DNA from: Methylophilaceae bacterium
GTDB taxonomy: Bacteria; Pseudomonadota; Gammaproteobacteria; Burkholderiales; Methylophilaceae
Direction of reading: 5' to 3'
Assembly (NCBI GenBank): GCA_028351715.1
Contig: JAOMKM010000002.1
Location: 42,515-106,514, forward strand
DNA length: 64,000 nucleotides
Shown in pieces: positions 11,867 through 17,466 of this stretch. Under the pieces are notes generated by a model. That model was not told the origin of the DNA. It saw only the letters and a program-made list of their open reading frames with translations, and ran no database searches. The first letter of the stretch is position 1, and each line of letters begins with the position of its first letter. The position numbers were made by a program, and so were the translations under genes.

Positions 11867-13288
11867 ATGAAAAAGCTTTTATTATTGATTTATTTTTTAA
11901 GCCAAAATTTGATGGCTAATGATTTGCCAGATTTAGGTAGTTATACCGATAGTATTGTTAGCGATGTAGAGGAGGATAAAATCGCCAAACAAATTCTATA
12001 TCAGGTTAATCAAAGTCCTATTGTGGTCCGCGACGTTGAAATTGACGACTATCTTACAGGCTTAGGCCGTCGCTTAATGACTGGAACTTCGATTGCTCAT
12101 CGAAATATAGAATTCTTTATTTTAAATGATTCAACTATCAATGCATTTGCTATGTTGGGTGGCGTAATTGGTGTTCATACAGGTTTATTCTTAGCAGCCA
12201 ATACTGAATCTCAATTGGCTAGTGTATTAGGTCACGAGATTGCTCATCTTTCTCAGAAACATTTACCTCGAATTATTGCCAAACAACAGCGTGATAGTTA
12301 CAAATCATATCTTGCATTAGCATTTGCTTTGTTGTTATCCCGCTCAAACCCAGAGCTAGCATCTGCAACTCAGACCATAGCTAGCGCATCTGCAATTCAA
12401 AACACCCTTGATTTTACAAGAAAACATGAAAAAGAGGCAGATAGAGAGGGGCTTAAAATTTTAGATCGCGCAGGCTTTGATGTAAGAGCCTCTATTGAGT
12501 TTTTTAAAACTATGCAAAAAGGTAACCAATTTAGTGGGGGTACTGCCCCTGCATTCTTAAGGACTCATCCGATCACGAGTGATCGTATTAGCGATATTCA
12601 GGATCGATTAAGTGAATATCCATATAAACAAAGAATAGATTCCGATTATTTCTATTATGTTAAGGGAAAGATAAAAGCATTTCTTGAAGAAGAAAAAACT
12701 ATCATAACTATTCTTGAGAGAAATATTAAAAATAAAACATATATTAATGAAGCTGGAGAAAGATTTGGTTTAGCTTATGCATATTTACGTAACAACATGA
12801 TTCTTAAAGCAAGAAGTGAATTAGAGTATATAAAAAAAGAAAAGACACCTAATGCAATGTTGCTTAATTTAGAGGCAATTATTTTGGTTCAGGAGGGCAA
12901 GCAAAAGGAGGCTACTCAGCTTTATAAAAAAGGATTATTAATGTTTCCAAATCATCGAGCTTTTGTTTATGGTTTAGCCGAACACTATATTAGGTCATCC
13001 AAAATAACTATAGCAATAGATTTATTACAGGATTATTTATTAATCTATCCCAAAGACCCTAATCTTTATGAATTAATGGCAAAAGCACAGGCTGTTAAGG
13101 GAAAAGTTTTATTGCAACATGAGAATTTAGCCGAGGCATTTTATTATCGTTACAATATAAGAGAAGCAATTAGCCTTTTAGATCTTGCTGCGCGTGCACA
13201 GGATGGTAACTTTTATGAAAAGTCTCGAGTAGAATCAAGATTAAAAGAGTTAAAAAAAGAGTGGGAACAATTTAGTAAGGGATTATAA
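11867..13288 (+). CDS. bepA: Periplasmic M48 metalloprotease with TPR tail, BepA-like
   Basis: 473 residues from ATG 11867. An in-frame ATG at 11744 would extend into moaC on the other strand and destroy the signal peptide, so 11867 (MKKLLLLIYFLSQNLMA) is preferred. The HExxH zinc motif is HEIAH in VLGHEIAHLSQKH near residue 124, with the third ligand in EKEADREG near residue 190. The second half is built of tetratricopeptide-like helices. BepA (YfgC) clears stalled LptD and BAM intermediates in the periplasm, which suits a region rich in envelope genes. A related M48 protease (LoiP type) is less likely because of the TPR part. Confidence 0.9.
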   Translation: MKKLLLLIYFLSQNLMANDLPDLGSYTDSIVSDVEEDKIAKQILYQVNQSPIVVRDVEIDDYLTGLGRRLMTGTSIAHRNIEFFILNDSTINAFAMLGGVIGVHTGLFLAANTESQLASVLGHEIAHLSQKHLPRIIAKQQRDSYKSYLALAFALLLSRSNPELASATQTIASASAIQNTLDFTRKHEKEADREGLKILDRAGFDVRASIEFFKTMQKGNQFSGGTAPAFLRTHPITSDRISDIQDRLSEYPYKQRIDSDYFYYVKGKIKAFLEEEKTIITILERNIKNKTYINEAGERFGLAYAYLRNNMILKARSELEYIKKEKTPNAMLLNLEAIILVQEGKQKEATQLYKKGLLMFPNHRAFVYGLAEHYIRSSKITIAIDLLQDYLLIYPKDPNLYELMAKAQAVKGKVLLQHENLAEAFYYRYNIREAISLLDLAARAQDGNFYEKSRVESRLKELKKEWEQFSKGL

Positions 13289-13351
13289 TAAGTAAAATAT
13301 ATTATACTAATATCTATAATTAATTATACATATTAAATTTTCCTCCATATA

Positions 13352-13380
13352 CTTATCTTTCTTTTTAAATATTAGATAAG
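13352..13380 (+). promoter_or_regulatory. Hairpin overlapping the ahpC ribosome binding site
   Basis: A perfect 7-base inverted repeat, CTTATCT (13352-13358) and AGATAAG (13374-13380), with a 15-base AT loop. The right arm runs into AAGGA, the probable Shine-Dalgarno of ahpC (start 13390), so folding would partly hide it. In AT-rich DNA a 7-base match can arise by chance, so regulatory meaning is only suggested. Confidence 0.35.
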
Positions 13381-13389
13381 GAATTACTA

Positions 13390-13956
13390 ATGTCTTCATT
13401 AATAAATACGGAAGTTAAGCCATTTTCGGCAACAGCCTTTCATAATGGCAAAGAAGTTGAAGTAACTGAAGCGGACCTAAAGGGTAAATGGTCGGCTGTT
13501 GTTTTTTATCCTGCCGATTTTACATTTGTATGCCCAACAGAGCTTGGTGATATTGCAGATCATTATGACGAGCTTCAAAAAATAGGCGTTGAAGTTTATA
13601 CAGTTTCAACTGACACTCACTTCACTCATAAAGCATGGCATGATGCTTCTGATACGATTAAAAAAATAAAGTTTCCAATGATCGGAGATCCAACAGGAAC
13701 AATGACAAGAAACTTCGATGTAATGATCGAGGAAGCAGGATTAGCTCTTAGAGGTTCATTTATAATTAACCCTGAAGGTATTATAAAGACTGCAGAAGTA
13801 AATGATCTAGGTATTGGTCGATCAGCAACTGATCTTCTTAGAAAAATTCAAGCAGCTCAACACGTAGCAGCAAATCCAAACCAAGCCTGCCCTGCTTCAT
13901 GGAAACCAGGGGAAGAAGCACTTACTCCTTCATTAGACCTAGTTGGAAAAATTTAA
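13390..13956 (+). CDS. ahpC: Alkyl hydroperoxide reductase subunit C (2-Cys peroxiredoxin)
   Basis: 188 residues, the standard AhpC length. It reduces H2O2 and organic peroxides in the cytoplasm and is recycled by AhpF. The peroxidatic Cys is in [14 protein letters not shown] near residue 48 and the resolving Cys in [11 protein letters not shown] near residue 166. Shine-Dalgarno AAGGA lies 8 bases upstream of ATG. The 101-base leader upstream is very AT-rich and probably holds the promoter; no convincing OxyR site was found by eye. Followed by a small ORF and a GC-rich hairpin before ahpF, which may set ahpC above ahpF expression. Confidence 0.97.
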
Positions 13957-13986
13957 ATAATTTATATTTTTTGATAAGAGGTAACG

Positions 13987-14112
13987 ATGAAAATAATTAA
14001 AAAATCCTACATTATTATAATTAATGATGAAGAGAAAAATATGGAAGAAGTTTGTGGTTTAGATAAAAAATGTCAGAAAAGATGGTTGGAAGCTCAATCA
14101 GATTGTATTTGA
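13987..14112 (+). CDS. Small Cys-containing ORF between ahpC and ahpF (41 aa)
   Basis: An ATG at 13987 preceded by a good Shine-Dalgarno (AAGAGG, about 6 bases upstream) opens a 41-codon frame. The predicted peptide has a basic/hydrophobic start (MKIIKKSYIIIIND), an acidic middle and three cysteines near residues 23, 29 and 40, with the last just before the C-terminus. I do not recognise the family. It sits 30 bases after ahpC and just before a GC-rich hairpin, on the same strand as both ahp genes. Cysteines inside a peroxide operon suggest a redox role, but that is inference; a non-coding leader segment is the alternative. Confidence 0.55.
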   Translation: MKIIKKSYIIIINDEEKNMEEVCGLDKKCQKRWLEAQSDCI

Positions 14113-14129
14113 ATTACAACTTAATGATG

Positions 14130-14151
14130 TTGGGCCAGAGCCTTGGCCCAA
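14130..14151 (+). terminator. GC-rich hairpin between ahpC and ahpF
   Basis: A perfect 8-base stem, TTGGGCCA (14130-14137) with TGGCCCAA (14144-14151), and a 6-base loop, standing out in AT-rich surroundings. The tail is TTCCTAATAATT rather than a clean T run, so it is better read as a partial terminator or a 3'-end stabiliser of ahpC mRNA than as a full stop of transcription. It lies 27 bases before the ahpF start. Confidence 0.5.
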
Positions 14152-14178
14152 TTCCTAATAATTATGGATTGATAGTAA

Positions 14179-15729
14179 ATGGCACTTGATACAAAAATAA
14201 AAGAACAATTAAATCAATACCTAACAAAAATTGAATCTGCAGTAGTTATAGACGCGTATGTCAATAAGGAAACTGCATCTACTTCAATGGTAGATTTACT
14301 GAAAGAATTATCAGTCATGTCTGACAAGGTATCATTGAATATTTTTGATGATAGTAATGAGCGAACTCCATCCTTTACAGTAAATAAACCTAATGAATCA
14401 TCTGGTATTCAGTTTGCAGGTATTCCTATGGGTCATGAATTCACATCGCTGGTATTAGCATTATTACAAGTTGGTGGCTATCCAGTGAAGATATCTGATG
14501 AACAGATTGAGCAAATAAAGAATATTGAAGGAGAATTTTTCTTTGAGACATATATTTCTTTAAGTTGCCATAATTGTCCTGACGTAGTTCAGGCACTTAA
14601 TGTTTTATCTTTATTAAATCCTGGGATCAGTCATTGCATGATTGATGGCGCATTATTTCAAGATGAAATAAATACTAAAAAGATTATGTCTGTTCCAACC
14701 ATACATTTAAACGGCAAGGAGTTTGGGCAGGGTCGAATGGACCTTGAGGAAATTATTAATAAAATTGATACAAAAGCTTCAGATAAAGCAGCTAAAAAAC
14801 TTTCAGCTATGAAATCTTTTGATATGCTTATTGTAGGCGGGGGTCCTGCAGGAGCATCAGCTGCTGTGTATGCTGCAAGAAAAGGTATTAGAACAGGTAT
14901 TGTTGCTGAACGCTTTGGTGGGCAGGTTATGGATACCCTTGGCATTGAAAATTTTATTTCAGTTAAGGCTACCGAAGGCCCAAAATTAGTGGCTGCACTA
15001 GAGGAGCATGTTAAAGAATATGAAGTTGATATTATTAACCTCCAGAAGGCTACAAAATTAGTTAAGAATGAGACTTCTCATTATGAAGTTGAACTTGAGA
15101 GCGGAGGAAGGCTTGAAAGCAAATCAATTATTATTGCTACAGGGGCAAGATGGAAAGAGCTGGGAGTTCCAGGCGAAAAAGAATATAAAGGTAAGGGGGT
15201 GGCTTACTGCCCTCATTGTGACGGACCATTATTTAAAGGAAAAAATGTTGCTGTAGTTGGTGGAGGTAATTCAGGAATAGAAGCAGCTATTGATTTGGCT
15301 GGTATAGTTGGTCATGTTACCGTCTTGGAGTTTGCCCCTGAATTGAAAGCTGACCAGGTATTAGTCGATAGATTAGAAACATTAAAAAATATTGATGTCT
15401 TCGTGAATGTTCAGACAAATGAGATATATGGTTCAGATAAAGTTACTCACTTAAGATATATGGAAAGAGCCTCCAAAGAAGAGAAGCAGCTAAATATAGA
15501 GGGAGTATTCATTCAGATTGGTTTAGTGCCGAATACTGATTGGGTAAATGGAACTGTAGATCTAAGTAAATACGGCGAAATTGAGGTTAATAATAATGGA
15601 GCAACATCATTACCAGGAGTATTTGCAGCTGGAGACGTAACTACAGTTCCTTATAAGCAGATTATTATTGCTATGGGAGAAGGTTCAAAAGCTGCGCTTG
15701 GAGCCTTTGATTACTTAATTCGTCATTAG
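14179..15729 (+). CDS. ahpF: Alkyl hydroperoxide reductase subunit F
   Basis: 516 residues. It passes electrons from NADH through FAD and two disulfide centres to AhpC. The N-terminal tandem thioredoxin-fold domain holds [12 protein letters not shown] near residue 132; the FAD domain starts with [14 protein letters not shown] near residue 217; the thioredoxin-reductase-like redox Cys pair is AYCPHCDGP near residue 345; the NAD(P) motif [12 protein letters not shown] follows. The C-terminal [16 protein letters not shown] is the usual FAD-contacting end. Stop overlaps the convergent hda stop by 4 bases. Confidence 0.97.
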
Positions 15730-16322
15730 ATAATCGAATTAATCAATTCCTTAAGTAAAGGAATTGTTATAGGCTTTTTCGTTTTTAAAGACCATTCATC
15801 GAGAGCATCTAATGTAGTAATTAAGGATGGTAAATCACGTTTCAAATGTTTCATACAATAAGTAAGAACATTATGATTAAGTGACATTCCCTTCTCTTTT
15901 GTATGATGTTCGAGAGCTAATAATTTTTCATTATCAGTTAACCCTTTTAATTGGTAAACAAGCCCCCAGCTTAGTCTACTAGAAAGATCCTCTCTTAATC
16001 CCATATAGGATGGAGAATTTGATCCTGTAAGTAACATTTTTTTGAGAGTAGCTTTGTGTTGATTATATAAGTTAAAGGTTTCAATTTGACGATCTTCGTT
16101 AAACTTATCAATGTCTTCAATTATAGTTATATTCTGATTAGAAAGAGCTTCACAAATATGAGATTTTCCACTACCTTCTTCTCCCCATAAATAAATAAAT
16201 TGATTATTATCAGAGTAAATAAAATTATTAATAGCTTCGAGGCATTCATAATTATTTCCGACCACAAAATTTTGTAGTGTTTTTTCTGCTGGAGGATGAA
16301 TATTTAGTAAAAGTTGGTCCAT
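15726..16322 (-). CDS. hda: DnaA regulatory inactivator Hda
   Basis: A 198-residue DnaA-related AAA+ protein without the DNA-binding domain IV, fitting Hda (RIDA), which with the DNA-loaded beta clamp stimulates ATP hydrolysis by DnaA. The N-terminal MDQLLLNI resembles the clamp-binding motif of Hda. Walker A is GEEGSGKSH, Walker B-like IIEDIDKF, and [17 protein letters not shown] carries the Arg finger region. Shorter than E. coli Hda (about 230 aa) but the AAA+ core is complete. Divergent from purM across a 94-base gap. Confidence 0.9.
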
Positions 16323-16416
16323 AAAGAGAGCTCTAAGATGAAAATAACTATTGGCTGTAAATTAAGTTAAAATTCTATTATACGTAATGTAAAAATTTAT
16401 TCAGAGGATAAATAAT

Positions 16417-17466
16417 TTGTCTCAAAAATCCAAAAAATTAAAATCTATTTCATATAAAGATGCAGGTGTCGATATTAAAGCAGGAGACCAGCTAGTTAAA
16501 AATATCAAGCCTTTTGCAAAAATGACTTCTAGAAAAGAAGTAATGGGTGGTTTAGGTGGGTTTGGTTCAATGTTTGAAATTCCTGAAAAATTTAATAGCC
16601 CAATATTGGTTTCAGGAACAGATGGTGTTGGTACAAAGTTAAAATTAGCGGTTGAACTTAACAATCATGAAACAATAGGACAAGATCTTGTCGCAATGTG
16701 TGTAAATGATATTTTAGTTCAAGGAGCAGAGCCTTTATTCTTTTTAGATTACTTTGCATGCGGGAGTTTAAAGGTATCGACAGCAACTACTGTAATTAAA
16801 GGTATAGCTGATGGATGTCTTCTTGCTGGGTGTTCATTAGTTGGAGGAGAAACAGCAGAAATGCCAGGTATGTATGCAGAAGGGGACTATGACTTGGCAG
16901 GGTTTTGTGTTGGAGCTGTTGAGAAAAATAATATTATAGATGGAGCTGATGTCTCACTCGGTGATTTAATTATTGGATTGGCTTCTTCAGGTGCACATTC
17001 AAATGGATATTCACTAATTAGAAAAATTATAGAAAAGGAAGATATTGATATTAATCAGGAATTTGATGGAAAAACATTAGCTGAAGTATTGATGAAGCCT
17101 ACTAAAATTTATGTCAAATCAATCCTGGAGCTTTTGGGTTCAGTGAAAGTTAATGCGATGGCACATATTACTGGTGGAGGTATAACAGAAAATATTCCTC
17201 GCATTCTACCAACTAATCTAAAAGCAATGTTGAATCGAAAGGCATGGGAATTACCGCGACTATTTAAGTGGCTTAAAGAAAATGGGAATCTTAGCGATCG
17301 TGAACTATACAGAACATTTAATTGCGGTATTGGCATGGCAATTGTTATTAATCCTCTGGATCAAGAACAAACATTAAAAATATTAAATGATTGTGGGGAA
17401 AAGCCTTTCTTGATAGGGGTTGTTACAAATCGAATAAGCGATGAGCCACAGACTGAAATTAACTAG
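16417..17466 (+). CDS. purM: Phosphoribosylformylglycinamidine cyclo-ligase PurM
   Basis: 349 residues, normal for PurM (AIR synthetase), fifth step of purine synthesis, ATP-dependent and cytoplasmic. Motifs include [61 protein letters not shown] and [16 protein letters not shown]. The start is TTG at 16417, supported by Shine-Dalgarno AGAGG nine bases upstream and by N-terminal homology. Upstream TTGGCT and TATTAT with a 19-base spacer could be its promoter (16351-16381). The frequent partner purN does not follow; a DUF3108 gene overlaps the 3' end by 26 bases instead. Confidence 0.96.

Follow-up and report, generated by a model that had tools for sequence, protein, structure and literature searches.

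In E. coli, a hairpin in the spacer between ahpC and ahpF is cut by RNase III, which stabilises the ahpC mRNA (PMC5371410). Among small cysteine-containing ORFs, CruR (DUF2946) has been described as a copper-responsive upstream ORF with a CXXC motif and a C-terminal RAPP arrest motif (PMC9426467). A small Cys-containing ORF and a hairpin occur together in the window, by which we mean the whole stretch of 64,000 nucleotides analysed here: the order on the + strand is ahpC, a 41-codon small ORF (smORF), an 8-bp hairpin and ahpF (Table 1). The source is a small OM43-type Methylophilaceae genome (873 kb, 68% complete), to which HTCC2181 and UBA4017 are the nearest named records. Re-reading of the sequence confirmed the coordinates, the 41 codons, the three cysteines and the Shine-Dalgarno sequence of the smORF as given in the initial annotation, its location on the same strand as ahpC and ahpF, and the presence and folding of the G+C-rich 8-bp hairpin inside ahpCF. 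The cysteines are residues 23, 29 and 40, and the conserved core spans codons 23-40 with C23, D26, C29, R32, D39 and C40. The start of ahpF lies 66 nt downstream of the smORF. A 39-aa ORF that overlaps the smORF (14070-14189) was regarded as an artefact. Beyond the initial annotation, our analysis identifies the smORF as a member of a gene family and the region at its 5' end as the tail of a deleted doxX gene.

Table 1. Features of the ahpC-ahpF locus (positions refer to the window)
Feature	Position	Strand	Evidence
ahpC, alkyl hydroperoxide reductase peroxiredoxin subunit, 188 aa	13390..13956	+	ORF; Pfam AhpC-TSA 2.7e-35 and 1-cysPrx_C
doxX remnant, last 12 codons (LYFLIRGNDENN) and stop	13962..14000	+	same 3' end as the intact 138-aa doxX of G025/G027
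Shine-Dalgarno AAGAGG, 5 nt before the ATG	13976..13981	+	sequence; identical in G025/G027
Three-Cys microprotein gene (smORF), 41 codons and TGA	13987..14112	+	ORF, homologues, conservation
G+C-rich 8-bp hairpin, 27 nt before the ahpF ATG	14130..14151	+	fold; position conserved in OM43 spacers
ahpF, 516 aa	14179..15729	+	ORF; Pfam Pyr_redox_2 5e-48 and Thioredoxin_3

The three-Cys microprotein family

A search of the genus with the orthologous protein from G025, one of the two nearest relatives, yielded strong matches in the four genomes that carry the gene between ahpC and ahpF, along with numerous weak ones, which were short ORFs with the same terminal motif; the window smORF was recovered by this single-sequence search at 7e-19. 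Its match to profile A2, which includes the window sequence (G000:C22), had an E-value of 1.5e-14. In profile searches, homologues were found in about 34 of the 187 Methylophilaceae genomes, nearly all of them OM43 or Methylopumilus-type (35 genomes at E <= 0.01, including G086, whose match was marginal and lacked the motif). The members are distributed over OM43 (g1), genus g38, which we read as Methylopumilus-type by kinship, and two further genera with one genome each. Outside the Methylophilaceae, no genome matched the profiles in samples of the order, the class (369 genomes) and the phylum (399 genomes), a result that holds at the sensitivity of these profiles and for order and phylum samples that also included a few members of the Methylophilaceae without a reported match. 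An assignment to a known protein family or solved structure was discarded, as profile searches of Pfam, NCBIfam and PDB gave no credible match for the family, and so was a phage or mobile origin, as searches with two members found no relative in viral contigs and a search of phage records with one member found none either.

Reading of the gene neighbourhoods resulted in 45 distinct sequences of 32-60 aa, all of which end in the signature C-x(5,6)-C-x2-R-x6-D-C-x-stop, in the window at residues 23-41 (CGLDKKCQKRWLEAQSDCI). In window numbering, C23, C29, R32, D39 and C40 are invariant over all 45 sequences and D26 is nearly invariant, and the N-terminus is unconserved. Exactly three Cys are present in 43 members, and 37 of the 45 have a match resembling a Shine-Dalgarno sequence. 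By its conservation, the smORF is a genuine protein-coding gene, and sequence comparison showed that it belongs to a previously unnamed, lineage-restricted family of three-Cys microproteins in streamlined planktonic Methylophilaceae. One Methylopumilus-type genome contains four copies within about 36 kb (G113:C1:475817-493038 and a second locus), with genes for azurin, DoxX, fasciclin-like and TerC-like proteins and cytochrome c as neighbours.

Frameshifts and loss of Cys or of the start codon in close relatives, which the initial annotation had named as evidence against the gene, were absent from the orthologues in G025 and G027, and neither these nor the window gene contained a premature stop. 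G029 retains the core of the smORF between ahpC and ahpF, with no in-frame ATG visible in a broken assembly, whose contig has frameshifts in both ahpC and ahpF. Alignment of related spacers, proposed earlier as a check, bore out the conservation of the Cys residues in relatives, whereas the expected bias towards synonymous changes was weak in the closest trio, formed by the window gene and the orthologues of G025 and G027: its dN/dS was 0.27-0.41, with P = 0.07-0.15 for the deficit of nonsynonymous changes. In four larger orthologous sets, pooled pN/pS amounted to 0.20 (the msrA-linked set of OM43), 0.23, 0.33 and 0.37. These codon comparisons show purifying selection acting family-wide, and the case rests on the family and not on the window trio.

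Spacer history: doxX and the hairpin

For comparison, ahpC-ahpF spacers were taken from related loci. In most OM43 genomes, the spacer consists of only 51-91 bp including the hairpin. The spacers of G025 and G027, the two nearest relatives with AhpC proteins 100 and 99% identical to that of the window, measure 631-632 bp and have the order ahpC-doxX-smORF-hairpin-ahpF. The intact doxX in these genomes encodes a protein of 138 aa (Pfam DoxX PF07681, 2e-9), the end of which is overlapped by the smORF by 14 nt, and the window shows exactly the same order, except that 406 bases of doxX are missing, with the remnant still overlapping the start of the smORF by 14 nt. Remoter DoxX proteins elsewhere in the genus have a similar ...IRGNK end, which identifies the tail in the window as a remnant, left there by a deletion. 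Judged by these alignments, the window lineage has lost 406 bp of doxX and retained the final 12 codons; the one other DoxX of the source genome is distant (35%). The smORF probably entered the ahpCF operon together with doxX, to which it would have been translationally coupled, and after the later loss of doxX the small gene appears to have been retained with its own Shine-Dalgarno sequence.

The hairpin (TTGGGCCA-GAGCCT-TGGCCCAA) has a G+C-rich stem but no T-tract, and no intrinsic terminator was called in 13250-16450, so that a function as intrinsic terminator was rejected; known RNA elements were likewise considered for the locus and none matched. Within the last 100 nt before ahpF, a hairpin folds in 22 of the 22 OM43 spacers examined, in 21 of them with z <= -2 relative to shuffled sequences; in the window, where the folded stretch contains extra sequence, z was -1.5. 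The stem sequences differ between the spacers, and the hairpin is also present in OM43 spacers without any smORF. Occurrence in all 22 spacers with different stems indicates that the hairpin is older than the small gene and independent of it. The initial annotation suggested that the hairpin may separate the expression of ahpC and the smORF from that of ahpF. Of this proposal, the conserved spacer element with its parallel in E. coli (PMC5371410) persists, and the connection to the smORF does not. This more ancient, independent element may set the ratio at which ahpC and ahpF are expressed.

Gene neighbourhood, proposed function and alternatives

Six members of the family, from six genomes and two lineages, are located in the ahpCF operon: those of G000 (the window), G025, G027 and G029 lie between ahpC and ahpF, with or without doxX, and those of G019 and G026 directly follow ahpF, with stop and start codons touching or overlapping. 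Since the two placements fall into different clades of the core tree (support 0.94 and 0.95, from short sequences), the gene probably became associated with ahpCF on two occasions. Another 12 members precede msrA by 5-15 bp in 8 OM43 and 4 Methylopumilus-type genomes, i.e. in two genera, and OM43 genomes with an ahpCF-linked copy have no msrA-linked copy and vice versa. An alternative oxidase gene is found just upstream in three of the four Methylopumilus-type msrA-linked loci, where the gaps in the order alternative oxidase - microprotein - msrA are 82-83 and 5 bp. The remaining copies stand alone, many of those in Methylopumilus near other genes, and some standalone copies have genes for c-type cytochrome, azurin, ferritin-like, fasciclin-like, DoxX or SOUL proteins nearby; the many standalone Methylopumilus copies imply that the linkage to peroxide defence is not universal. 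From gene order, we infer that the recurring neighbours reflect a functional linkage to the repair of oxidative damage.

The MsrA proteins that adjoin the microprotein in OM43 have an N-terminal hydrophobic stretch resembling a signal sequence, which the microprotein lacks, and the remaining MsrA proteins of OM43, mostly 54-62% identical, form a separate group. The idea that the small protein provides a resolving Cys for a deficient MsrA was not supported, because the linked MsrA proteins possess both the catalytic Cys in GCYWG and the C-terminal Cys in GY(S/T)CH.

AlphaFold2 predicted helices at residues 19-23 and 27-38 of the window protein (mean pLDDT 71, pTM 0.42) and was confident only in the core around residues 21-40, with a pLDDT of about 90 for residues 21-30. 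The model of a Methylopumilus-type member was poor (pTM 0.30) and contained one C-terminal helix, and a Foldseek search of the PDB with the predicted fold gave no match. In the family, the N-terminus is variable, lysine-rich and probably disordered, and is followed by a short C-terminal helical element that carries the signature. The protein presumably stays in the cytosol, and the conserved group of Cys, Arg and Asp would be its working part. In the model, Cys29 and Arg32 are one helical turn apart, suggesting a lowered pKa of a reactive thiol, which would leave Cys23 and Cys40 free to form a disulfide; alternatively, the three Cys might constitute a metal site. Made together with AhpC and AhpF or with MsrA, the protein could work during peroxide stress, when it might donate thiols to this machinery, act on it as a redox switch or buffer metals for it. 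Most likely, it is a cytosolic thiol or thiol-metal microprotein supporting the repair of peroxide damage and methionine sulfoxide. The proposal of the initial annotation that the smORF encodes a small redox or regulatory protein is strengthened by the Cys residues invariant in 45 members, the preserved reading frame and the recurrent linkage to ahpCF, which extends to msrA; the function itself retains the status of a candidate.

Short ORFs are common in the window, but the homologues of the smORF, which occur in many genomes and in unrelated contexts and retain five invariant residues, place it beyond chance and leave a chance ORF in an A+T-rich spacer practically no probability. It is also very improbable that the window copy is a non-functional relic of the doxX deletion. 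The loss of a gene that overlaps the smORF in relatives and the weak selection on the trio would fit such decay, whereas the window copy has suffered neither stop, frameshift nor loss of conserved residues, its Shine-Dalgarno sequence and ATG are intact, and purifying selection is seen across the family.

For copies just before msrA or ahpF, a role as redox-sensing nascent-chain leader is possible by analogy with CruR (PMC9426467): the C-terminal 18-20 residues would act within the ribosome, in its exit tunnel, and an oxidised Cys or a bound metal would alter translation or termination and thereby the expression of ahpF or msrA. Conservation that is limited to the last residues ahead of the stop codon and leaves the N-terminus free, the short distance to the next gene (5-15 nt for msrA, 66 nt for ahpF), the hairpin between the smORF and ahpF and a same-strand gene within 100 nt in 18 of the 45 members agree with this scenario. 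As a general explanation we consider it improbable, since the next neighbour is on the opposite strand in 16 of the 45 members, including both that directly follow ahpF, the hairpin also occurs in OM43 genomes without a smORF in the spacer, and no known RNA leader matches. Somewhat less remote, yet still unlikely, is a microprotein binding copper, zinc or iron, for which the link to redox genes would reflect metal-driven oxidative stress and not thiol chemistry. A metal site could be built from the three invariant Cys and the Asp, genes for azurin, ferritin-like protein or c-type cytochrome are found near some Methylopumilus copies, and OM43 copies have a gene for a SOUL haem-binding protein nearby. 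On the other hand, the closest and most repeated linkages are to msrA and ahpCF and not to metal transport, and neither CxxC nor His ligands are conserved. The best explanation overall, to which we give a modest preference, is a real gene of a thiol or thiol-metal microprotein family tied to the repair of peroxide damage and methionine sulfoxide. More tentatively, the family may represent a hitherto undescribed class of general thiol redox partners or sensors for peroxide and methionine-sulfoxide repair in the smallest free-living methylotrophs, one that was added independently to different repair operons as the genomes were streamlined.

Genome streamlining in plankton goes along with gene loss, but in these lineages a very small gene without known relatives has been kept, duplicated and moved. 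Should its product prove to be a thiol or metal microprotein linked to the defence against peroxide, it would be a new component of the oxidative stress response in abundant bacteria of oceans and lakes. With the family signature, such genes, which are easily overlooked for their size, can be located immediately. Several members come from culturable isolates, and the OM43 isolate HTCC2181 carries one copy.

Comparison with known systems

Short Cys-containing peptides encoded beside doxX, as in two relatives of the window, resemble RiPP precursors of MNIO enzymes (DUF692, PF05114), which often occur with DoxX. A precursor of this type (bufferin, methanobactin and similar) was nevertheless rejected because PF05114, which has a match in 113 of 187 Methylophilaceae genomes and is often found in other Methylophilaceae genera, gave no match among the OM43 or Methylopumilus-type genomes. 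With CruR, the smORF shares the small size and the Cys residues; a functional C-terminus would be a further parallel, and a position ahead of a same-strand gene is seen in 18 of the 45 members but not in the 16 with an opposite-strand neighbour. It differs in Cys spacing, in that a CXXC plus C-terminal RAPP arrest motif is absent from all 45 members, and in that many copies precede no gene. The hairpin has the same position between ahpC and ahpF as the RNase III substrate of E. coli, and a similar processing role is plausible by analogy. In OM43, its stem sequence differs by lineage, it is recognised by positional conservation, and in G000, G025 and G027 it has an intact small gene between itself and ahpC. 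An identity as thioredoxin- or glutaredoxin-like protein was rejected: the microproteins comprise 32-60 aa without CxxC in the core, are predicted to form short helices only and no thioredoxin fold, and have no match in Pfam, NCBIfam or PDB. What they have in common with thioredoxins and glutaredoxins is that they are small, Cys-based and encoded together with peroxide and repair enzymes, and this likeness suggests a role as thiol partner.
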